A DNA stretch of 64,000 nucleotides from an uncultured delta proteobacterium (GCA_903906315.1 CAIVJW010000293.1:1-64000); one strand, 5' to 3'; counted from the first letter of the stretch, positions 1 to 60,114 are shown. Numbers and translations are program-made. The notes: generated from the sequence alone by a model not told the origin.

Positions 1-1
1 C

Positions 2-460
2 GACATCGCGCTGACGATCTCGCAGAAGCTCCGCACGACGGGGGCGATCATCGTCACGACGCCGCAAGAGGTCGCGCTGCAGGACGTCTACAAATCCGTC
101 TCGATGGCGCAGAAGGTCGGCATCCCGCTGCTCGGCGTGGTGGAGAACCAGAGCTGGTTCGTGTGCGACGGCTGCTCGAAGAAGCACACGATCTTCGGCT
201 CCGGTGGCGGCGCGAAGGTCGCCGAGTTCGCCGGTGCGCCGCTGCTCGGTCAGATCCCGATCGACCCGTCGGTGCGCGAGTGGGGCGACGCCGGCACGCC
301 CGTCGTCGAGGCGGCGCCCGAAAGCCCGGTCGGCCGGGCCTTCCTCGAGCTCGGTCGAAAGCTGGCTGGGCGCGTGAGCGCGCAGAACGTCGGCCGCTCC
401 GGAGGGCTTCGGATCGACCGCAGCGGCGGCGTGCAGCGACACCTGCCGATCGCCCGCTGA
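2..460 (+). CDS. apbC: Mrp/ApbC-type P-loop ATPase, iron-sulfur carrier (C-terminal part)
   Basis: The gene is cut by the window edge; the frame is open from base 2 to the TGA at 458-460. The visible part matches the C-terminal half of Mrp/NBP35/ApbC scaffold ATPases, cytoplasmic proteins that carry and deliver Fe-S clusters. Seen directly: the TPQEVALQDV segment, the GVVENQSWFVC stretch, a CxxC pair (C-D-G-C, the family's cluster ligands), the IFGSGGG motif and the GQIPIDPSVRE strand. The Walker A region lies outside the window. About 35 residues after the conserved core look like an ordinary variable tail. The family call is secure; substrate proteins cannot be inferred. Confidence 0.9.
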   Translation, partial: DIALTISQKLRTTGAIIVTTPQEVALQDVYKSVSMAQKVGIPLLGVVENQSWFVCDGCSKKHTIFGSGGGAKVAEFAGAPLLGQIPIDPSVREWGDAGTPVVEAAPESPVGRAFLELGRKLAGRVSAQNVGRSGGLRIDRSGGVQRHLPIAR

Positions 461-701
461 GGGCCTCGGCGACGTCCGCCCGGCTCGCGGGGCTGAACCG
501 GTGATCCGGTGAACGAGCGTCTCCGCGTGGTCGGCGGCGCTTCCTCCCTTCCTCGCTTCGCGCGCTCGGCGCGCTCGGTTGTCCTCTCGCACTGACGCGC
601 GAGGTACGATATGTTCCCGCTCCCTGAAGACGGCGACTACCCGCCGTCTCACACAGCTCGTACGTGGCCAATCGGCTGCGAACGCGAGGCGCGAAGGCGC
701 A

Positions 702-3005
702 ATGACCACCAACGACGACGACACCACCCCGGCGGAATCCGCCCACGAGCGGTCGCAGGCCGAGCAGCCCGCGGCTCACGAGTCCCACGACGCACCGGTC
801 GCGCACGAGGCAGAGCCTGCGCAGCCGCCGCCTCCGCGTCCTGCGGCGCCGCCGAGACGGCGCTCGGAGGAGCCGCACGAAGAGCCCGGCGACGACGTCG
901 GCAACCGGATGCCCGCGGGGCTCCCGGCGTATGCGCAGCGGTACTTCGTGCCTCAGGCGCGGCCGCAGGGACCGGGCCCGGGCCCGCGCGGCGAAGGCCG
1001 AGGCGGTGCTCCGCGCGGCCGGCCGGGGCCGAATCCCCCGCGCGAGGACCGTCGCGTTCCGCAGCAGCGGGGCGCGCCGAGGCGCGAGGGTGATCCCGCC
1101 GTCGAAGGCGCCGACGGGGCCGAGCGCGCCGCGACGAGCGACCCGCAGCTCGAGGGCGCCGCGCCCGTCGAGGGCACCGACGCGACCGCGGTCGTGGCCG
1201 GCGAGGCTGGAACGACGACCGATGGGCAGGCGCCCGCGAAGAAGCGTCGCCGTCGTCGTCGCCGCAAGAAGGGCGCGAGCGCGGTGCCGGGAGCTCCGGG
1301 GGTACCGGGCTCCGAGCAGGCTGCCGCCGCCGAGGGCGAGGGCGACGACCACGAGGACGGCGACCACGAGGACGGCGAGGCCGAGGGCGCCGAGGGCGAG
1401 GCTCACGTCGCGGCTGAGGCCCGCGTCGAGGGCGAGGCTCGCGCGGAAGGCGAGGCCCACGCCGAAGGCGAGCACGCGGAGGGCGCCGAGGGCGAGGCCC
1501 AGGCCGAGGGCGGGCCTGAAGGCGAAGGCCATGAAGCCGGCGACGACCACGAGGGCGGCGAAGGGCCGCACGCCGAAGGCGAGGAGGGCGCCAAGCGTCC
1601 TCGCAAGAAGCGCGGAGGCCCGGCCTACGCGCACCACGAGCACGCCCCCTTCCGCGTCGGGGAGGAGGTGTTCGGTCGCGTGCACATGCTCACCGACCAC
1701 GCGGTGTGGGTCGACATTGCCGCCAAGGCGATGGGCCTCTTCGATCGTCGCGAGCTCACGCTCGACGAGCCGCCGGTCGAGGGCGACCAGTTCATCGCGA
1801 CGGTGGCGAGCACGGGCGTCCGCGGCGGCATGCTGGTGCTGTCGCGCCAGGCGGCCGATCTCGAAGCCACCCGCGCTCGGGTCGAGGTGGCGCTCAACGA
1901 CGGCGCCCTCCTCGAGGGCTTCGTCACGGGCGCGGTGAGGGGCGGCCTCGAGGTCGACATCGGCGGCCTGCGGGCGTTCGCGCCTGCGTCGCACGTCGAT
2001 CTGCGCCACGGCGCGGACCTCGGCTACCTCGTCGGGCAGCTGCTCGAGTGGGAGATCACCCACTTCGCGAAGAAGGGCCGCGACATCGTGGTCTCGCGTC
2101 GCCGGGCGCTCGAGGGTGAGGCCCAGAACGCGCGCGTTCAGGCGCTCAGGACGCTCGAGCCGGGCAGCGTCCACAAGGGCATCGTGCGCAAGGTCGTCGA
2201 CTGGGGCGTCTTCGTGTCGCTCCCGGAAGCGGGCGGCGCCGAGGGCCTCGTTCACATGACCGAGGCGAGCCACGACCGCGGAGCCCGTCTCTCCGGCTTG
2301 TTCAAGCCGGGCGAGGAGATCGAGGTCAAGGTCCTGCGCGTCGACGAGAAGGGCAAGCTCTGGCTCAGCCGCAAGGGCGCCGTGGCCGACCCGTGGGACG
2401 CCGTGCGGGAGAAATACGCGATCGGGTCGCGCCACAAGGCGATCGTCGCGCGCATCCAGCCGTTCGGCGTGTTCGTCGAGCTCGAGTCGGGCATCGACGG
2501 CCTCATCCACACAGCCGACCTGTCGTTCAAGCCGATCAACGATCCGAGCGAGGTCGTGAAGGTCGGCGACTCCCTCGATGTCGTCGTCGCCTCGTGCGAC
2601 GCCGGATCGCACCGCATCGGCCTGCACCCCGCCCCCCCGGCGGGCGAGGAGGACGAGCCGCGCCAGCGCGTCGTCCAGTACAAGAACGTGAAGGCCATCG
2701 TGGCCCAGATCGTCGAGGGCGGGCTCGTCGTCCGCATTCTCGGCACGACGGGCCGCGCGGCGCGCGCGTTCATTCCGGCCGGCCACACCGGCACGGCTCG
2801 CGGGGCCGACCTTCGCAAGGACTTCCCCGTCGGCCTGCGCATCGACGCGAAGGTGCTCGAGGTCGATCCGCGCCGCGGAGAGGCCAAGCTCTCGATCCGT
2901 GCGCTCAAGGACGACGCCGAGAAGCACGCCTACCAGCAGTATCGGCAGGGCGTGCAGCGCGAGGCGAAGTTCGGCACGTTCGCCGATCTCATGAAGAAGG
3001 GCTGA
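702..3005 (+). CDS. S1 RNA-binding domain protein with five S1 repeats and acidic N-terminal region
   Basis: The protein has 767 residues starting at ATG 702, preceded by a GAAGG ribosome site. The frame runs upstream to a possible start at 579, but the stretch before 702 does not look coding. Residues 1-310 are low complexity: proline/arginine-rich, a short Arg/Lys block near residue 175, then many E-G-E-A type repeats with His and Asp. Five S1 (OB-fold) modules follow at about 316-385, 400-480, 486-565, 572-645 and 660-745; the third and fourth have the clearest G-(V/F)-F-V motifs. S1 repeats bind single-stranded RNA, as in ribosomal protein S1. It may be an accessory S1 paralogue acting in translation or RNA turnover; it is not clearly rpsA because its N-terminus differs. 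Confidence 0.85.
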   Translation: MTTNDDDTTPAESAHERSQAEQPAAHESHDAPVAHEAEPAQPPPPRPAAPPRRRSEEPHEEPGDDVGNRMPAGLPAYAQRYFVPQARPQGPGPGPRGEGRGGAPRGRPGPNPPREDRRVPQQRGAPRREGDPAVEGADGAERAATSDPQLEGAAPVEGTDATAVVAGEAGTTTDGQAPAKKRRRRRRRKKGASAVPGAPGVPGSEQAAAAEGEGDDHEDGDHEDGEAEGAEGEAHVAAEARVEGEARAEGEAHAEGEHAEGAEGEAQAEGGPEGEGHEAGDDHEGGEGPHAEGEEGAKRPRKKRGGPAYAHHEHAPFRVGEEVFGRVHMLTDHAVWVDIAAKAMGLFDRRELTLDEPPVEGDQFIATVASTGVRGGMLVLSRQAADLEATRARVEVALNDGALLEGFVTGAVRGGLEVDIGGLRAFAPASHVDLRHGADLGYLVGQLLEWEITHFAKKGRDIVVSRRRALEGEAQNARVQALRTLEPGSVHKGIVRKVVDWGVFVSLPEAGGAEGLVHMTEASHDRGARLSGLFKPGEEIEVKVLRVDEKGKLWLSRKGAVADPWDAVREKYAIGSRHKAIVARIQPFGVFVELESGIDGLIHTADLSFKPINDPSEVVKVGDSLDVVVASCDAGSHRIGLHPAPPAGEEDEPRQRVVQYKNVKAIVAQIVEGGLVVRILGTTGRAARAFIPAGHTGTARGADLRKDFPVGLRIDAKVLEVDPRRGEAKLSIRALKDDAEKHAYQQYRQGVQREAKFGTFADLMKKG

Positions 3006-3056
3006 TCGCGCTGGCGGGTCTCCCTCTCGGAGGCCCGCGGCTCGGTCCGACGGCGG

Positions 3057-3089
3057 GGCCGCTCACGCGAGCGGCCTCGTCGCTTTTTT
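3057..3089 (+). terminator. Rho-independent terminator after the S1-domain gene
   Basis: A perfect 8-bp stem (GGCCGCTC at 3057-3064, GAGCGGCC at 3069-3076) with a four-base loop is followed seven bases later by six T residues at 3084-3089. It lies 52 bases after the stop of the plus-strand S1-domain gene and just before the stop of the convergent ABC permease gene, so it could limit read-through between the two. Confidence 0.85.
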
Positions 3090-3098
3090 GTGCGCTGA

Positions 3099-4330
<1,232 letters not shown>

Positions 4331-4334
<4 letters not shown>

Positions 4335-5557
4335 TCGTGCCTCAGCGCGTCGATGGGGTCGAGGCGCGCGGCGCGGCGCGCAGGGAAGAAGCCGAAGACG
4401 ATGCCGATCGCGCCGCTCGTGCCGACCGCCGCGACGACGGCCTGAAGCGGCAGCTCCATCGACCACTCGAGCGCGCGGCTCAGGACGGCGATGATCGCGA
4501 CGCCGAACGCGAGCCCGACCACGCCGCCGAGCACCGACAGCGTCACCGCCTCGACGAGGAACTGCACCATGATGTCGGCCTCGCCCGCGCCGATGGCCAT
4601 GCGGATGCCGATCTCCCGCGTCCGCTCGGTGACGCTCACGAGCATGATGTTCATCACCCCGATGCCGCCCACGAGCAGCGACACGGCCGCGACCGACGCG
4701 AGCAGCGCCTGGAGCGTGTCGAAGATCTGCTCCTGCGACTTGCGGAACTCGGCCTGCGTTCGGATCACGAAGTCGGGCTCCTCGTCCGGCCCGATGTGGT
4801 GGCGCTGCCGCAGGATCTGCTCGATTTGCCCGACGGCGCGGTCGACCGTGAGGGTGTCGGTCGCCGACGCCATGAGCTGCTGCACGCGGCCGGGCGCCGT
4901 CGGCAGGATGCGCGACCGGAAGCTGCCCATCGGCATGAGAATGCGGTCGTCCTGGTCCTCGCCGAAGGGCGACTGGCCCTTCTTCGCGAGCACCGCGATC
5001 ACGCGGAAGGGGTACTTGCCGATGCGCACGTACTCACCGATGCCGTCACCGCTGCCGAAGAGGTTCTCGCGCACGGTGTCGCCGAGGACGATGACCTTCG
5101 TCTTGAGCTGCTCGTCGGCCTCGGTCCACGACTGGCCCTTCGAGAACTCGAACGCGCGCACCTCCCAGTACGATCGCGTGACGCCCATCACGCTGGTCGC
5201 CCAGTTCTTGTCGCCGGCGACCACCTGCATGCTCGTCGAGCTGAAGGGCGCGACCAGCGCGATGCTCGTCGCCTCCTTGCCGAGGGCCATCCCGTCGGCC
5301 TCGGTGAGGCGGCCGGAGTCCTTGGCGCTCCCTTTCGCGCCGGACACCTGGGTGGCCTGCGGCCAGATGTAGATGAGGTTGGCGCCGAGGCTCGAGATCT
5401 CGCCGCCGATGCGGTTGCGCACGCCGGTGCCGAGCGCGACCACGACGACGACCGCCGCGACGCCGATCAGGATGCCGAGCACCGTGAGCGACGCGCGCAG
5501 CTTCGAGCGCAGGATGGCCCGCAGCGCGAGGCGGACGGCGGCGAGGATCGACCTCAC
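4331..5557 (-). CDS. MacB-type ABC transporter permease (first of two)
   Basis: Start taken as GTG 5557, overlapping the TGA of the ATPase gene; 408 residues. It carries the N-terminal membrane segment (LRASLTVLGILIGVAAVV), a periplasmic MacB-type domain of roughly 230 residues, three C-terminal helices, the motif GGIGVMNIMLVSVTERTREI and the FGFFPARRAARLDP tail that contacts the ATPase. Stop and start overlaps on both sides show tight translational coupling with the ATPase and the second permease. In Escherichia coli MacB the ATPase and permease are one chain; here they are split, as in LolCDE-like and many Gram-positive systems. Confidence 0.9.
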
Positions 5558-53935: not shown

Positions 53936-54766
53936 CTACCTCGCGCGCGCCCGCCACGTCACCAGCGCGTTCGGCCCCGTCTTGCCGAGCCGGTGCTGCC
54001 CGCTCACGTCGGCTGGGGCGATCGCGTCGAGCGCCGCGCGCACCCGCGCACGCCCCGGCTCGTCGGGGTCGACGTTCACCCGCAGGCAGAGCTCGTCGAT
54101 CTCCTCGTCCGACGCGCCGAACACGAGCTCGCGCTCGCTGCCCGGCAGCAGGCGCAGCTCCGCCGGGAGCCCGAGCTGGTGCAAGAGCGCCAGCGCGTCG
54201 AGCGCCGCCGGCCGTCTTGGTAGCACCGCGCCGTGCACGCGAGCCCGCAGCGGCGCGAGCGCGTCCGCCGGCGCCGTCACGCCGAGGCAGAGCGCGCACA
54301 GCCGTCGCGCGGCGGCGTCCATCGCGAGCACGAACGCGGGTGCATCCTCGACGCCGTAGAGCACGTGCGCCGAGAGCACCACGTCGCCCGCGACGCGGCT
54401 CGGGCATGGCCATCGATCGCTGAGCACGTCGACGTTGACGAGACCCTCCTCGGCGACGCGGCGCTCGAGGTGCGCGCGCATCGACGCCGAGGGTTCGACG
54501 GCGATCATTCGCCGGCACGCGCGCGCGAGGGGGACGACGTGCCGGCCCGTGCCCGCGCCGATGTCGACGACCACGTCGTCCGCGAGGAGGTGCGAGCCAA
54601 CCACGTCGACGAGCGGATCGGCCGCGCCTGCCTCGCGGCTACGTCGGTCGAAGCGGCCGGCCCGCCGCGCCCAACGGTCCCCGGGCGTCGGTCCGTCCGG
54701 CTCGCGCGTGGCGACGACCATGGCGCGCCATTCGGCCGCGAGATCAGCGTCGAGCGCGACGCTCAC
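53936..54766 (-). CDS. Class I SAM-dependent methyltransferase
   Basis: The protein has 276 residues; GTG 54766 overlaps the stop of the NTPase gene. The methyltransferase fold is clear: motif I VVVDIGAGTGRHVVPLA, acidic MIAVEPSASM, and DVVLSAHVLYGV. It is the fifth and last gene of a strictly coupled unit with the lipoprotein, TonB receptor, ECF membrane protein and NTPase. The substrate is not evident; it could methylate the imported compound, a chelator, or be unrelated in activity. Confidence 0.85.
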   Translation of the reverse strand: MSVALDADLAAEWRAMVVATREPDGPTPGDRWARRAGRFDRRSREAGAADPLVDVVGSHLLADDVVVDIGAGTGRHVVPLARACRRMIAVEPSASMRAHLERRVAEEGLVNVDVLSDRWPCPSRVAGDVVLSAHVLYGVEDAPAFVLAMDAAARRLCALCLGVTAPADALAPLRARVHGAVLPRRPAALDALALLHQLGLPAELRLLPGSERELVFGASDEEIDELCLRVNVDPDEPGRARVRAALDAIAPADVSGQHRLGKTGPNALVTWRARAR

Positions 54767-55314
54767 GCGAGCACCTCGCCCGCGGCATCGGCGAGCGCGT
54801 CGACGAACGCGCCGAGGTCGCCGCCCTCGGCCGTCTCGAGCGCGGCGACCGGCGCTCCGAGCTCGAACCTCTCGAGCACGCCGAAGACCTGCGCCGCCTG
54901 CACGGAGAGCACCACGATCGCGTCGCCGGCGAGCGCGTCACGGATGGCCGCGTGGTGACCCCGACCGGCGACCTCGAGCTTGCTCACCTCGTCCAGGAAG
55001 AGCACGCGCGCCGTGGGCGCGTCCTCGACGAGCCAGCGCCGCGCCTCGTCGAACGCGCCGAGCTCGAACACGTACGAGCAGAACGCCTCGTCCTCCGGCC
55101 CGCGCGGGGTCGCGTTCTTGCGCGCGACGACGCGCGTGTCCGGGCGGCCGAGCCGGCGCAGTCGATAGCCGACGCGCTCGCCGTCCGCCTCGATGGCGTC
55201 CTGCACGAAGCCCGCGATCGCGACGCCGCGCGCCGCGAGGGCCTCCGCGGCCCGGTTCACCGCGCGGCTCTTGCCCGTGCCCTTCGTCCCCGAGACGAGC
55301 GCCCATCTGCTCAC
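54763..55314 (-). CDS. P-loop NTPase of the THEP1/NTPase_1 type
   Basis: The protein has 183 residues; GTG 55314 overlaps the preceding stop. Walker A is GTKGTGKS (9-16) and Walker B is VLFLDEVSKLE (about 100-110), the DE pair being typical of the small nucleoside-triphosphatase THEP1 family. It is a soluble, single-domain protein without ABC signature LSGGQ. Its position directly after a membrane protein with ECF S-like and T-like parts suggests that it works with that transporter. Whether it replaces the usual ABC ATPase is not shown. Confidence 0.8.
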   Translation of the reverse strand: MSRWALVSGTKGTGKSRAVNRAAEALAARGVAIAGFVQDAIEADGERVGYRLRRLGRPDTRVVARKNATPRGPEDEAFCSYVFELGAFDEARRWLVEDAPTARVLFLDEVSKLEVAGRGHHAAIRDALAGDAIVVLSVQAAQVFGVLERFELGAPVAALETAEGGDLGAFVDALADAAGEVLA

Positions 55315-56606
55315 GTGCCGACCTCCTGCTCACTCACCCCGCCGAGCTCTTCACGATCCGCGCCGAGCGAGTCTGCCGCGGACTCCGCGAGCGCCGACGC
55401 GTGCGCGACGGCGGCCACCAGCGATTCGAAGGCGCGCCGCGGCGCGTGGCGCAGGCCCGGGCTCTGCGCCTCGGCCTCGCGTCGCGCCTCGCCGAGCCGC
55501 GCGACGAGCGTCGGGACGAGCTCGAGCGCGACGACGAGCACCTCGGCGAAGCGCCTGCCTCGCGTGCCGCGCAGCCGCGCGAGGGCCTCGGCGGGCGGGA
55601 AGCGCGCCATCACCGCCGCGCCGAGCAGGACGATCGCCGCGGCGCGCGCGAGCATCGTCGTCGCGGCCAGCGCGCCCGCGAAGGACACGGCGTGCCCGGC
55701 CAGGTGCGCGTCGCGCGGCCCGAGCCACAGGCCGAAGAGCGCGAGCACCGCGCCCGTCACGACCCAGCGAGCCGGCCGCCCGAGCGCGCGCGCGACCCCT
55801 CGATCGAGGGCGAACGCGAGCACGACGAGGGCGAGGCCGAGCGGCGCGTGAAGGCCGGCGCGCGTGGTCGAGAGCGCGACGAGGAGGGCGAGGGAGAGGG
55901 CGAGGATGGCCAACCTCCCCCCGCCAGCCCCCCGATCGCCGAGGCGCGAGGCAGACGCTCCCGAGCGCGAGTCCGAGCCCCCTCTCCGTTCAGGGAGAGG
56001 GGGTTGGGGGTGAGGTCCGTCAGGCAGAGGCGCCTCGCGGCGAGCCCCCCCCGCGCGCCTCCCGGCGAGCGCGGCGGTCGCGCCGATCGCGAAGACGAGC
56101 GCCGCGAACGGCGCGACGACGCGCACGCCGCCCGAGGGCGCGAGGCCGATCCACGCCTCGGCGCGCTTCAGGACCTCGCGGTAGAGGTCGATCACCGGCG
56201 CGCCGTAGAGCACGATCTGCGTCAGCACCTTCTGCGAGAGCGCCCAGAGCGTCGCCAGGCCGCCGCCGAAGATCGCGGCGGGCGCGCTCGCGCCGAAGAG
56301 GCACGCGAGCTCCACGAGCACGCTCTCGACGAGGATACCCACCATCGGGCCGACCACGACCGTGGCCGGCGAGCAGAGCTTCACGCCCGCGCACACCGCG
56401 CCCGCCGCCACGAGCACGCCGCGCCGCGGGTACGTGACGCGCAGGGCGATCAGGAGCGCCGCGCCCGTGGCCGCGAGCATCGTGCCGCCGAAGGGCACCT
56501 TCAGCGCGTGCAGGAACGACCCGACCGTCGCCTCGAGCGCGCCCCACAGCGCGCCGAACGCGGCCGCGTGGCCCCAGAACCGATCGCGCTCGGACGCGTC
56601 GCTCAC
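55311..56606 (-). CDS. Fused ECF-transporter S-like and T-like membrane protein
   Basis: The protein has 431 residues; GTG 56606 overlaps the receptor gene stop. Residues about 1-185 form an S-component-like membrane domain (FGALWGALEATVGSFLHALKVPFGGTMLAATGAALL, GPMVGILVESVLVELACLFG). Residues about 235-431 form an EcfT-like domain with several helices and the coupling helices FPPAEALARLRGTRGRRFAEVLVVALELVPTL. The linker of about 35 residues between them is encoded by a REP-like hairpin. No EcfA ATPase genes are nearby. Substrate specificity cannot be read from the sequence; metal ions, cofactors and vitamins are the usual cargo of the class. Confidence 0.75.
   Translation of the reverse strand: MSDASERDRFWGHAAAFGALWGALEATVGSFLHALKVPFGGTMLAATGAALLIALRVTYPRRGVLVAAGAVCAGVKLCSPATVVVGPMVGILVESVLVELACLFGASAPAAIFGGGLATLWALSQKVLTQIVLYGAPVIDLYREVLKRAEAWIGLAPSGGVRVVAPFAALVFAIGATAALAGRRAGGARREAPLPDGPHPQPPLPERRGGSDSRSGASASRLGDRGAGGGRLAILALSLALLVALSTTRAGLHAPLGLALVVLAFALDRGVARALGRPARWVVTGAVLALFGLWLGPRDAHLAGHAVSFAGALAATTMLARAAAIVLLGAAVMARFPPAEALARLRGTRGRRFAEVLVVALELVPTLVARLGEARREAEAQSPGLRHAPRRAFESLVAAVAHASALAESAADSLGADREELGGVSEQEVGT
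55978..56003. repeat. REP-like palindrome inside the ECF fusion gene
   Basis: A perfect 10-bp inverted repeat CCCCCTCTCC/GGAGAGGGGG with a six-base loop GTTCAG is embedded in frame in the S-T linker, where it encodes the HPQPPLPERRG stretch. Its core resembles the hairpin at 61445-61496 and the CCCTCTCC type of repeated intergenic elements. Confidence 0.85.
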
Positions 56607-58555
56607 GAGCCCGCCTTCGCCGCGAGGCCGACGAAGAGCTGCCGCCCCGGCTCCGGGAACGCGTATTGCCCCTCGACGTTGGCGTCGGCGAGGTTCGTGC
56701 CGCGCACCCACGCAGAGAGGCCCGGCAAGAACGCCCAGTCGACGCGCGCGTCGAACATCCGGTAGCCGCCGAGGTGGCCCCAGCGGCCCGTGTCGGGGTT
56801 CTGGAAGTCCTGCCCCCCGACCGATCGCATCACGCCCGTGGCCGACACGCCCGCGAAGGGCCCGACCGTCAGCGTCACGAGGCCCTTGTCGGAGGGCTTG
56901 TATTGCAGCGGATCCGCGAGGCCGTCGCCCGTGCGGGCCGAGATCACCATCCACCCCGCGCTCACGTCGATCCACGGCGTCGGCGTGAGGCGGAGCTCCG
57001 CCTCGCCGCCGACGAAGCGTGCGCGCGCCGCGTTCTGCAGCTGATCGGTGCCCGGCGCGACGAAGACCGTGGTGATCACGTCGCGCAGCTCCGAGTCGAA
57101 GAAGCCGACCGCGACGCGCAGCCACCTCGCGGGGCGGGCCGCGACGTCGATCGCGAGGTTCACGGCGCGCTCGGGCGAGAGGCCCGGGTTCGGGGCGCGC
57201 GCGCCGAAGACGGTGCTGAAGCGCTCGCGCAAGGTCGGGAAGCGCGTGCGGCTCGCGGCGCTCGCGGTCACGTCGATCCACGCGGCAGGCGTGAACGTGA
57301 TCGCGCTCATGGGGCCGACGCCCGCGGAGGCCTCGGGCGAAGGGCCGGTCTCGGGCGCGCCGGGCAGCTCGCCGGACAGCTCGGCGCCGACCGACGCGCG
57401 GAGCCACCGCGGCAGCACCGTGACCTCGGCCTCCGCCGACGTCGTGAGCAGCGTGGTCGCGGCGTGGAGCCAGGGGTCGACGGTCGAGGCCTGGCTCGCG
57501 TGCAGGTCGCGCCGCACGCCCGACCACGACCGCAGGACGATCTCGCGCGCCGCGCCGAGCGGCGTCGTCCACGAGGTGCGCACGAAGCCGCCGATGGCGC
57601 CGTCGTCGTAGAGGCTGTGGAACGCCTTGCGGAGCCGCTGCGTCGCGTACCGGCCGTCGTCGTAGGCGTCGAGCGCGTTGGCGAAGCGGCTCGCGTAGAT
57701 GGCGGCCTCGGTCGCGACGGGGCCGCGGCGGAAGGCGTGCGATGCGCCGACGGACTGCGTGGTCCAGTCCGTCCAGCGCCAGTTGCGGACGGTGAACGCG
57801 CGCGTGCCGGGCGGGACGCCGTAGCGGCCCTCGAGCTGCGAGGCCGCCACCGAGACGCGGTGCGCGTCGCCCGCGTCCCACGTCCACTTCGTCGTGAGGT
57901 TGCCGGCGAGGCGGTCGGAGTTGTCGCGCGCGCCGCCGTCCTCGTTCGCCGTCGGCGTGAAGCGCGCCGACATCGGCACCTGACGCACGCTCTCGAACGA
58001 CGCCCCGACGAGGCCGCCGACGGGGCCGAAGCGGCTCGCGCCGACGAGGCTCGCGCGCGCCGCGCCACAGACGCCGGCCTCGGTGCGCGCGCGGACGCTC
58101 GGACGCTCGGTCGGCTCGCGGGTCACGATGTCGATCGCGCCGCCGAGGCCGTTCGGCCCGTACAAGAGCGCGCTCGCGCCCTTCACCACGGCGACGCGCT
58201 CGACGAGATCCACCGGCAGCTTGTCGAGGTCGAGCTGCCCGTCGTACGGCACGGCCACGGGCACGCCGTCGACGGATACCGCGATCTGCCGCTGATCGAA
58301 GCCGCGGAGCGAGAGGATGCGCTCGCCGCGTGATCCCGACGCGCCGCTCACCGCGGGCAGCTCCTCCAGCGTCGTGCCGACGCTGGTCGTGCCGAGGCGA
58401 TCGATGCGCGCGGCGTCGATCACGGTGACCGCGGTGCCGCGATCGACGCGGCGCGCGCCCTCGACGACGACCTCGGGGGTCGGCTCGTCCGCGCGCGCGA
58501 CGCCCGGCCCGATCGCGGTGATCGCGCCCGCCGCGAAGAGCACGCGCCCCTTCAC
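56603..58555 (-). CDS. TonB-dependent outer-membrane receptor
   Basis: The protein has 650 residues from GTG 58555, overlapping the lipoprotein stop. A signal peptide (VLFAAGAITAIGPGVARADE) is followed by a TonB-box-like segment PEVVVEGARRV, then the plug domain (about 50-155: TTLEELPAVSGASGSRGERILSLRGFDQRQIAVSVDGVPV, KGASALLYGPNGLGGAIDIVTREP). The remaining 490 residues form the 22-strand barrel, ending in FVGLAAKAGS. It takes up scarce solutes across the outer membrane using TonB energy. Its length is in the range of cobalamin and metal-chelate receptors. The neighbouring lipoprotein may be an outer-surface binding partner. Confidence 0.93.
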   Translation of the reverse strand: MKGRVLFAAGAITAIGPGVARADEPTPEVVVEGARRVDRGTAVTVIDAARIDRLGTTSVGTTLEELPAVSGASGSRGERILSLRGFDQRQIAVSVDGVPVAVPYDGQLDLDKLPVDLVERVAVVKGASALLYGPNGLGGAIDIVTREPTERPSVRARTEAGVCGAARASLVGASRFGPVGGLVGASFESVRQVPMSARFTPTANEDGGARDNSDRLAGNLTTKWTWDAGDAHRVSVAASQLEGRYGVPPGTRAFTVRNWRWTDWTTQSVGASHAFRRGPVATEAAIYASRFANALDAYDDGRYATQRLRKAFHSLYDDGAIGGFVRTSWTTPLGAAREIVLRSWSGVRRDLHASQASTVDPWLHAATTLLTTSAEAEVTVLPRWLRASVGAELSGELPGAPETGPSPEASAGVGPMSAITFTPAAWIDVTASAASRTRFPTLRERFSTVFGARAPNPGLSPERAVNLAIDVAARPARWLRVAVGFFDSELRDVITTVFVAPGTDQLQNAARARFVGGEAELRLTPTPWIDVSAGWMVISARTGDGLADPLQYKPSDKGLVTLTVGPFAGVSATGVMRSVGGQDFQNPDTGRWGHLGGYRMFDARVDWAFLPGLSAWVRGTNLADANVEGQYAFPEPGRQLFVGLAAKAGS

Positions 58556-59118
58556 GGCACGTCGAGCGCGGTCACCTTCGCTACGGCCTTCACCGAGTAG
58601 CAGCCGGGCAGCCCGAGCGCGTCGTCCCACACGAGCGATCGCGTCTCGGGGATCAGGTAGCCCTGCGCGATCTCGGCGTACGTGATGTACGCCGCGCACT
58701 TCGACTTCTGCGACGGGTGGAAGCCGTCGTCGCCCTCGAAGTCGAACTCGAGCCTCGTCTGCCCCGCGGCGAGCCCGCCGGCGGCCCACACGGCCTGGAG
58801 CGGCACGACGAGCGTGCCCTTGTAGTCCTGCGTCGTCAGCTTCGTGAGATCGACCGTCGCCGTGTCGGCGCCGTGGACGACGGTCACGTCGGCGGCGCCG
58901 AGCGCGGTGGATCCGCCGGCCCCGCCCCCGCTGCCCGTCGCGGCCGCCCCGCCCGCGCCGCCCGTGCCGGTCGCGGTGGACGTGGACGTCGACGTCGAGG
59001 TCGACGTGGTGACCGCCGTCTGGGTGGGGTTCCCGGAGCTGACGTCTTGGTCGCTGCAGCCCGCGAGGGCGGTGGCGACGGTGAGGAGGGACGAGCGGAG
59101 AGCGCGGGCGACCGACAT
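58552..59118 (-). CDS. Surface lipoprotein coupled to a TonB-dependent receptor
   Basis: The protein has 188 residues from ATG 59118. The signal ends in a lipobox (TVATALAGC). A 45-residue Thr/Ser and Gly/Ala linker precedes a compact domain containing ADVTVVHGADTATVDLTKL and FDFEGDDGFHPSQKSKC, with one further Cys (LGLPGC) that could form a disulfide. The family is not recognised. The stop overlaps the receptor's start. By analogy with receptor-lipoprotein pairs in other bacteria it may capture the ligand at the cell surface; this is inference. Confidence 0.82.
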   Translation of the reverse strand: MSVARALRSSLLTVATALAGCSDQDVSSGNPTQTAVTTSTSTSTSTSTATGTGGAGGAAATGSGGGAGGSTALGAADVTVVHGADTATVDLTKLTTQDYKGTLVVPLQAVWAAGGLAAGQTRLEFDFEGDDGFHPSQKSKCAAYITYAEIAQGYLIPETRSLVWDDALGLPGCYSVKAVAKVTALDVP

Positions 59119-59169: not shown

Positions 59170-60114
59170 CTACATGGGAGCGTCCTCGAAGTCGTACCGG
59201 ATGCTCCCCGCGCCGGCCGGGTCGTAGCCGGCTAGCGACGCGAGGGCCTCGCGGAACGCGGCGGACTGCGCGACCTCGCACACGGCCACGGCCTCGCGCG
59301 CGCCGAGGTGCTCGGCGTAGAGGACGAGGTCGTACGGCTCCTCGGCGATGGGCAGGAAGCGCAGGCCCACGCGCGCGGCCCAGGCCGACGTCGTGAGCGC
59401 CGCGTCCGCCTCGGCGCGCAGTACGGCGCAGACGCCCTCCCGGTGCGAGTCGACGACGGTCGCGGTCGCGTGGAGCGCGTCGAGCGTCACGCCCGCAGCG
59501 GCGAGCGCCCGTTCGAAGTGTGCGCGCACGCCGGCCGTCGGCGCGCGCGTCGCGAGGCGGCGCCCGGCGAGATCGCGCACGCTCGCCAGCGTGGGGCCCG
59601 CGTGCGCGAGCCCGACCTGGCGGCGGACGAGGTGGACGCGCGCGAGCCGCGCGGCCGCGACGTGCGTCGGCGGCGCCTCGCCGTGGAAGCCCGCGAGCAG
59701 CACCTCGCGGGCCGCGAGCAAGTGGAAGGCGGCGCCTCGGTCGGCCTGGACGAAGCCGACGAGCGGCTTCTTCTCGGTGCGAAGCCGCGTGAGCAAGGCC
59801 TCGATCACGAGATCGCCGTTTGCCGCGAGGAGCGGCGGCGGGGCAGCCGACGCGCCGGCCGCGGGCTGCGCGAGTGGGGCCACCTGCGGCGCCGGCGGCG
59901 TGGGGGGGGCCGCCCCGCCGCGCCCGGCGGACCACGCGAGCACCTCGTCGCGCAGGAAGCGCCACTCCGATCCGACGCGCCGGGCGGGCAGGCCCTGCTC
60001 GAGCAGCCGATAGACCTGCTTCGGGTGCACCCGGAGCAGGCGGGCGACCTCGGCGCTCTTCAGGAGGTCGTCGCCCGCGGGGGCGGCGCTGCGATCGCTA
60101 CGGTGCTCGCTCAC
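59170..60114 (-). CDS. Excisionase-type HTH regulator with periplasmic-binding-like ligand domain
   Basis: The protein has 314 residues from GTG 60114. The N-terminal helix-turn-helix (about 17-60: LLKSAEVARLLRVHPKQVYRLLEQGLPARRVGSEWRFLRDEVLAW) is of the excisionase/MerR-like type. After a Pro/Ala linker, residues about 100-310 resemble the substrate-binding domain found in regulators of molybdate-type uptake (LARVHLVRRQVGLAHAGPTLASVRDLAGRRLATRAPTAGVRAHFE, AEADAALTTSAWAARVGLRFLPI). It should sense a small molecule or oxyanion and control the adjacent transport operon. Confidence 0.82.
   Translation of the reverse strand: MSEHRSDRSAAPAGDDLLKSAEVARLLRVHPKQVYRLLEQGLPARRVGSEWRFLRDEVLAWSAGRGGAAPPTPPAPQVAPLAQPAAGASAAPPPLLAANGDLVIEALLTRLRTEKKPLVGFVQADRGAAFHLLAAREVLLAGFHGEAPPTHVAAARLARVHLVRRQVGLAHAGPTLASVRDLAGRRLATRAPTAGVRAHFERALAAAGVTLDALHATATVVDSHREGVCAVLRAEADAALTTSAWAARVGLRFLPIAEEPYDLVLYAEHLGAREAVAVCEVAQSAAFREALASLAGYDPAGAGSIRYDFEDAPM

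Follow-up and report, generated by a model that had tools for sequence, protein, structure and literature searches.

We read the myxobacterial operon at positions 53936-59118 of the window (the whole 64,000-nucleotide stretch of DNA analysed here) as a two-membrane uptake route, leading from the cell surface to the cytoplasm, whose cargo would be a pterin cofactor, most probably the molybdenum cofactor (Moco, Mo-molybdopterin) or metal-free molybdopterin, with a THEP1-class NTPase as its motor, and put the probability of this reading as a whole at roughly 0.5. In the proposed mechanism, a lipoprotein with a SUOX/PruR fold would capture the cofactor at the envelope, as its fold and a conserved motif suggest, and a TonB-dependent receptor would carry it across the outer membrane, in keeping with the known role of that family. 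The S-component would then bind the cofactor and the EcfT-type T part would couple S to the motor, functions suggested by the folds of a homologue. The NTPase, which is physically associated with the membrane protein in relatives, would hydrolyse NTP and may thereby drive import instead of an EcfA pair. Finally, MobA, MobB, MocA and XdhC, genes for which occur in several carriers, would finish and insert the cofactor. In the window genome, which can also make Moco, such a system would serve for additional salvage; in carriers that lack MoaA it would be the sole cofactor source.

Operon layout and the membrane protein

The five ORFs all lie on the minus strand. They encode a lipoprotein (P0001, 58552-59118) with the lipobox ALAGC and, by its AF2 model, a sulfite-oxidase/PruR-type fold; a TonB-dependent outer-membrane receptor of 650 aa (P0002, 56603-58555; plug PF07715, 2.5e-22); a membrane protein (P0003) with an ECF S-component-like domain (residues 1-188, 56043-56606), a linker (55932-56042) and an ECF T-like domain of EcfT/CbiQ fold (55311-55931); a THEP1-class P-loop NTPase (P0004, 54763-55314); and a SAM-dependent methyltransferase (P0005, 53936-54766; PF13649, 6.3e-8). 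Consecutive genes are joined by GTGA overlaps at 58555-58552, 56606-56603, 55314-55311 and 54766-54763, in agreement with the sequence-only reading, which had described five genes linked by four 4-base overlaps. That reading had also counted the methyltransferase in the coupled uptake set. The gene is inside the operon only in family f1, namely in the window and in two genomes of the sister genus g4 (L053, L054); L069 and L071 gave weak matches to genes that are not linked to the operon. It is treated here as accessory and rejected as a core part. The window's assembly holds, on the short contig C247 (L052; G000, 1-4375), a second copy of the regulator-lipoprotein-receptor-S-T segment, about 90% identical, which is either a paralogue or the result of strain mixture.

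Neither part of P0003 has a match in Pfam or NCBIfam. The evidence for an S-T fusion comes from relatives that encode S and T separately (L039, L043, L053, L054) and from the fold of the homologue L078, and in this way the earlier claim of a fused S-like/T-like protein is upheld. L078 is a single-chain S-T-NTPase protein, and it was this homologue (42-row alignment) rather than P0003 that was modelled, with a mean pLDDT of 88.6 and a pTM of 0.82. In the model, residues 17-207 align with 5edl, which we take to be YkoE, an ECF S-component, at Z 14.6 over 162 residues (VIA-align). For the T part, residues 228-414 align with 7nnu_D, the EcfT chain of the folate ECF transporter (Z 8.0, 184 residues), and residues 221-413 with CbiQ (5x3x_q; Z 6.8, 180 residues). 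These values are modest for a helical domain, and the predicted T-component fold draws partly on its context beside S. Foldseek on the same model returned 1ye8, 5edl and 7nnu_D at probability 1.00, with weak E-values. Since S and T are separate genes in g4 (L053/L054), where they share an ATGA overlap, the fusion in the window is a local one. Its linker contains, at window positions 55993-56020, a G+C-rich palindromic repeat (CCCCCTCTCCCTGAACGGAGAGGGGG) that is read in frame; the 90% identical L052 copy carries two such elements. The repeat looks like a mobile element that fused two genes.

The NTPase as candidate motor

A phylum sample of 284 genomes was searched with P0003. Matches were found in 24, and 21 were taken as confident carriers, those in G155, G015 and G211 being weak or partial. 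A contig scan with a narrower S alignment, which is biased against distant relatives and other phyla, added 10 genomes, almost all of which were assembled from metagenomes and carry the name Myxococcota, Deltaproteobacteria or Proteobacteria. Searching the loci with profiles showed S, T and NTPase together in 10 of the 14 sampled S-carrying genera and in all 10 added genomes, and the conservation of this set across relatives is not chance. Its arrangement varies. All three are separate genes at L039, L043/L080 and in g4 (L053/L054); S-T is fused and the NTPase separate in the window and at L038/L068; S is separate and T-NTPase is one ORF at 14 loci (L035/L061, L036/L070, L037, L040/L065, L042/L062, L046, L063, L064, L066, L067, L069, L071, L073, L075); and S-T-NTPase forms a single ORF at L072 and L078. 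T and NTPase thus share one chain at 16 loci, and at two of these the chain also includes S; for this reason the NTPase is assigned to the transporter. The sequence-only reading would have been weakened by frequent separation of the NTPase and membrane-protein genes in relatives; the opposite was seen, with widespread T-NTPase fusions and the two S-T-NTPase chains. Families f39 and f40 have no NTPase gene next to S-T; an NTPase of the same family with intact Walker motifs is encoded elsewhere in 6 of these 9 genomes, and was not found in the other 3. From these sequences and models, S, T and NTPase very probably form one functional unit. Many of the loci also encode a lipoprotein and a TonB-dependent receptor, the receptor being kept with S in most, and the two are the envelope partners of the module.

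P0004 belongs to the NTPase_1/THEP1 family (PF03266, E 1.3e-15, 58.1 bits against a cut-off of 23.9), with a second match to PF10649 (DUF2478; 5.2e-8). Both Walker motifs are intact (A, GTKGTGKS; B, LFLDE), the ABC signature (LSGGQ) is absent, and no ABC family matched the protein in Pfam or NCBIfam scans, all as expected from the earlier description of a THEP1-like NTPase lacking an ABC signature. An E-x4-G-H motif is present in most members of the NTPase family, and the T-fused copies all keep it together with both Walker motifs. In the L078 model, residues 416-582 align with THEP1 (1ye8) at Z 15.4 and with NTPCR (2i3b) at Z 13.7 (VIA-align), and less well with the transferase-type folds of thymidine kinase (Z 9.5) and ATP:corrinoid adenosyltransferase (Z 9.1).

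ABC ATPases are the defining feature of ECF transporters. No EcfA/EcfA' or CbiO pair is encoded in the operon, and the lack of EcfA reported for the window extends to the whole genome assembly (98.55% complete, 455 contigs): PF02361 (CbiQ) has no match, and a search for stand-alone ecfA genes gave 77 matches to TIGR04520 (ECF_ATPase_1), all below the cut-off of 315 bits (best score, 153.5), among which a divergent EcfA is possible by score. As it has no ABC ATPase pair, the system is not classed as an ECF transporter, although it very likely works like one. We know of no THEP1 protein that energises transport. The trans-envelope route with a new type of energiser that the sequence-only reading proposed is partly supported. 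Its core, an ECF-like S/T unit that works together with a THEP1-type NTPase, is strongly backed by the fusions and by the lack of any EcfA above the cut-off; use of the NTPase as an energy source is what we infer from that association.

The strongest competing explanation is that the NTPase is a cargo-modifying kinase, or a nucleotidyl or adenosyl transferase, which traps the cofactor inside the cell, with S-T working motorless, as has been suggested for S-components or S/T units on their own. Some vitamin transporters are encoded together with trapping enzymes, and this role would suit the likeness to thymidine kinase and the adenosyltransferase, the distance between NTPase and S-T in f39 and f40, and the degeneracy of second, stand-alone NTPase copies. 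However, THEP1 and NTPCR match the fold far better than any transferase, and the recognised cofactor-modifying enzymes MobA and MobB are separate genes in the L075 and L078 operons. The NTPase is also fused C-terminally to the EcfT-like domain, a natural site for a coupled motor, and S-T-NTPase triple fusions exist. We therefore regard a trapping enzyme as unlikely, and the NTPase as probably the energiser.

The degenerate copies deserve a description of their own. At L063 (9743-10294), L064 (10126-10677) and L069 (11648-12202), a second, stand-alone NTPase 3' of the receptor has degenerate Walker motifs and stands alongside an intact T-fused NTPase. By analogy with heterodimeric ATPases, it is possible that the degenerate protein is an inactive partner which pairs with the active one. 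The window NTPase is intact, yet it groups with the degenerate stand-alone copies by tree and motifs. The window genome also has a lone paralogue (L056, 8879-9433; G000, contig C48) with a broken Walker A (GRRGRGRI) and 43% identity to the window NTPase.

Evidence on the cargo

Most carriers of the system in the phylum sample have no MoaA. MoaA (PF06463) is present in 223 of the 284 genomes, with 2/21 confident S-carriers against 221/263 others (42 of the 263 are without it; Fisher p 2.5e-12) and 2/14 carrier against 149/174 other genera (p 4.5e-8), statistics which account for phylogeny down to genus level only. The deficit is also seen among good-quality genomes (p 8e-9), and when the 10 added genomes are included MoaA is present in 10/31 carriers (p 3.8e-9); absence of MoaA or MoeA here means absence from draft assemblies by one profile each. 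Eight of the 10 carriers from the contig scan are MoaA-positive, and the window genome is itself among the 10 MoaA-positive carriers. In families f1, f24, f26, f31 and f32, most carriers are without MoaA and most of the listed non-carriers have it. A MoaA-positive f24 genome (G211) contains S and receptor fragments (L059, 2817-3213), which are probably a decayed copy of the system.

Molybdoenzymes (PF02738, PF01568) were sought in 22 carriers. Twelve of the 22 are without MoaA, and molybdoenzymes were found in 12/12; judged by sequence, they look intact. MoeA is missing as well from nine of the twelve (G011, G040, G070, G090, G110, G141, G229, G289, G293), and most of these nine have no strong ModB (162 bits in G289, against a cut-off of 182.6). 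XdhB exceeds its cut-off in G040 and G141, NapA falls just under its own in G040, and in G070 the genes for a xanthine dehydrogenase are clustered with XdhC and MocA-like ones. G035 has no MoaA, yet encodes MobB, a molybdopterin oxidoreductase and a fusion of MobA with MoeA. Gene content of this kind in MoaA-less carriers is that expected of organisms obtaining the cofactor ready-made. The window genome encodes MoaA, MoeA and ModB, and the operon can therefore be at most a salvage route there. Absence of FolE was also considered as a sign of pterin auxotrophy and was rejected, FolE being found in 22/31 carriers; a general need for pterins is for that reason a poorer explanation.

Neighbouring genes give a second line of evidence. 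At L075 the operon runs moaA, moaC, a MOSC protein gene, mobB, S, T-NTPase, a triple lipoprotein and receptor, with mobB and S overlapping by ATGA, and at L078 the start of mobA lies 4 bases past the stop codon of the S-T-NTPase fusion. Upstream of the window operon is a regulator gene (59170-60114, minus strand) with an excisionase-type HTH (HTH_17; PF12728, 1.4e-10) and a PBP_like sensor domain (PF12727, 1.5e-22), which adjoins the operon in the window, L033 and L052. In three S-carrying genomes PF12727 is fused C-terminally to MoeA (L107, 1513-3408; L109, 1418-3319; L110, 807-2780), and the upstream regulator is putatively Mo/Moco-responsive.

The third line is the lipoprotein. It has no Pfam or NCBIfam match, a profile search against PDB sequences gave nothing useful, and Foldseek alone returned no E below 0.26; the SUOX fold came from a second look with VIA. 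The AF2 model of the domain (pLDDT 89) aligned there with SoxC (Z 11.8), sulfite oxidase (Z 11.4) and PruR (7kom; Z 9.9 over 134 residues), within an overall range of Z 9.2-11.8. Across 16 lipoprotein domains, D-G-F is nearly invariant and a W is invariant, a pattern that resembles, by motif order only, the pterin site of PruR, with N/D102, Y/F104 and W160 (PMC13259868). PruR is reported to bind small pterins and probably cannot hold Moco (PMC13259868, 2026 review), a point against the Moco reading. No DcpA/DTB-type regulator partner is present beside the lipoprotein, its neighbour being the TonB-dependent receptor. On its model, P0001 is a putative surface or periplasmic pterin/Moco-binding protein. 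Some relatives carry two or three copies of the domain within a single ORF (L063, L069, L073, L075), and at L073 and L075 the later repeats have lost a conserved cysteine pair.

From the lipoprotein fold, the moa/mob neighbours and the missing MoaA we infer that the cargo is probably Moco or molybdopterin. Molybdate or tungstate, free or chelated, could be carried in place of the finished cofactor, which would suit the PF12727 regulator, the Moco biosynthesis genes in the L075 operon and the presence of ModB above its cut-off in only 3/31 carriers; one of these three is, however, the window genome, and MoaA-less carriers with molybdoenzymes and the pterin-type fold of the lipoprotein would be left unexplained, which makes molybdate or tungstate a quite improbable cargo. 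Several loci point to metals of another kind and are a misfit with the Moco reading. At L067 (3203-8440), znuA, a znuB-like gene (identified by eye) and fur precede S, T-NTPase and receptor, perhaps marking a zinc-related branch of the family; Fur-like and cation-efflux genes are near L043/L080, a Fur-like gene is at L046, and znuAB-like genes (by eye) are near L066. These neighbours suggest zinc or another metal as cargo at the four loci. Extended to the whole family, with zinc or another transition-metal complex as the cargo and the nearby Moco genes as coincidence, the idea has a slim chance: the lipoprotein is missing at L043/L080, L046, L066 and L067, FUR is matched only weakly at L043, L046 and L067 (E 1e-5 to 2e-8), and neither the MoaA anticorrelation across genomes nor the pterin-type lipoprotein would be accounted for. 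A different pterin, e.g. a tetrahydropterin like the PruR ligand, would fit the PruR-like fold and motif and the 6-pyruvoyl-tetrahydropterin synthase gene divergent from L078, but FolE in 22/31 carriers makes their own pterin synthesis possible and the genome-level deficit is in MoaA, and we give this option little credence. Vitamin B12, hinted at by a receptor whose nearest relatives are BtuB-type and heme receptors, was rejected: P0002 is far below the cut-off of TonB-B12, its nearest NCBIfam family, Rfam matched no cobalamin riboswitch or other regulatory RNA family near the operon, and no cobalamin gene was noticed at the relatives' loci.

Relation to known systems

To our knowledge, no bacterial Moco importer has been described, nor any ECF module with a THEP1-type motor. 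A literature search, with subscription papers outside its scope, found nothing that combines THEP1 with an ECF transporter, and no bacterial Moco importer. The prevailing view is that cells needing Moco must make it, the nematode C. elegans being an exception, with the mechanism of membrane crossing unknown (PMC9793310, 2022), and how pterins cross bacterial membranes is likewise described as unknown (PMC13259868, 2026 review). Against this background we suggest, tentatively and with somewhat less than even confidence, that the operon represents the first bacterial import system for Moco or molybdopterin, in which a pterin-binding lipoprotein, a receptor and an ECF-derived pump with a THEP1-class NTPase replacing the ABC ATPases would free some Myxococcota from making the cofactor that their molybdoenzymes need. 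If so, a THEP1-class NTPase on an ECF S-T unit would be a second way to energise such transporters, Moco would be a vitamin for some bacteria, and the operon would supply candidates for the machinery that carries an unstable cofactor through membranes. As S-T-NTPase occurs naturally in one chain, the motor idea can be tested with a single gene.

Among known systems, ECF transporters (YkoE, EcfT/CbiQ, EcfA; folate ECF, CbiMQO) share with the operon the S fold, the T fold and the logic of the module, but here a THEP1-class NTPase, often fused to T or S-T, takes the place of EcfA or any other ABC ATPase. THEP1 and NTPCR share the fold, PF03266 and Walker A and B with this NTPase, whereas here the protein is joined to a membrane T-domain, E-x4-G-H is present in most members and some stand-alone paralogues have lost the Walker motifs. 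BtuB-BtuCDF and related TonB vitamin routes likewise pair a TonB-dependent receptor with an inner-membrane importer; the inner part here is ECF-like and has no ABC ATPase, a SUOX/PruR-fold lipoprotein is present and the window contains no cobalamin riboswitch. With PruR and the Moco domain of sulfite oxidase the likeness is in the lipoprotein fold and, for the pterin site of PruR, in the D-G-F and W motif (PMC13259868), while the lipoprotein here stands beside a TonB-dependent receptor instead of a DcpA partner and sometimes has 2-3 tandem domains. The ModABC molybdate transporter resembles the system in supplying molybdenum, but no homology was seen between the two, and the predicted cargo here is the finished or nearly finished cofactor.
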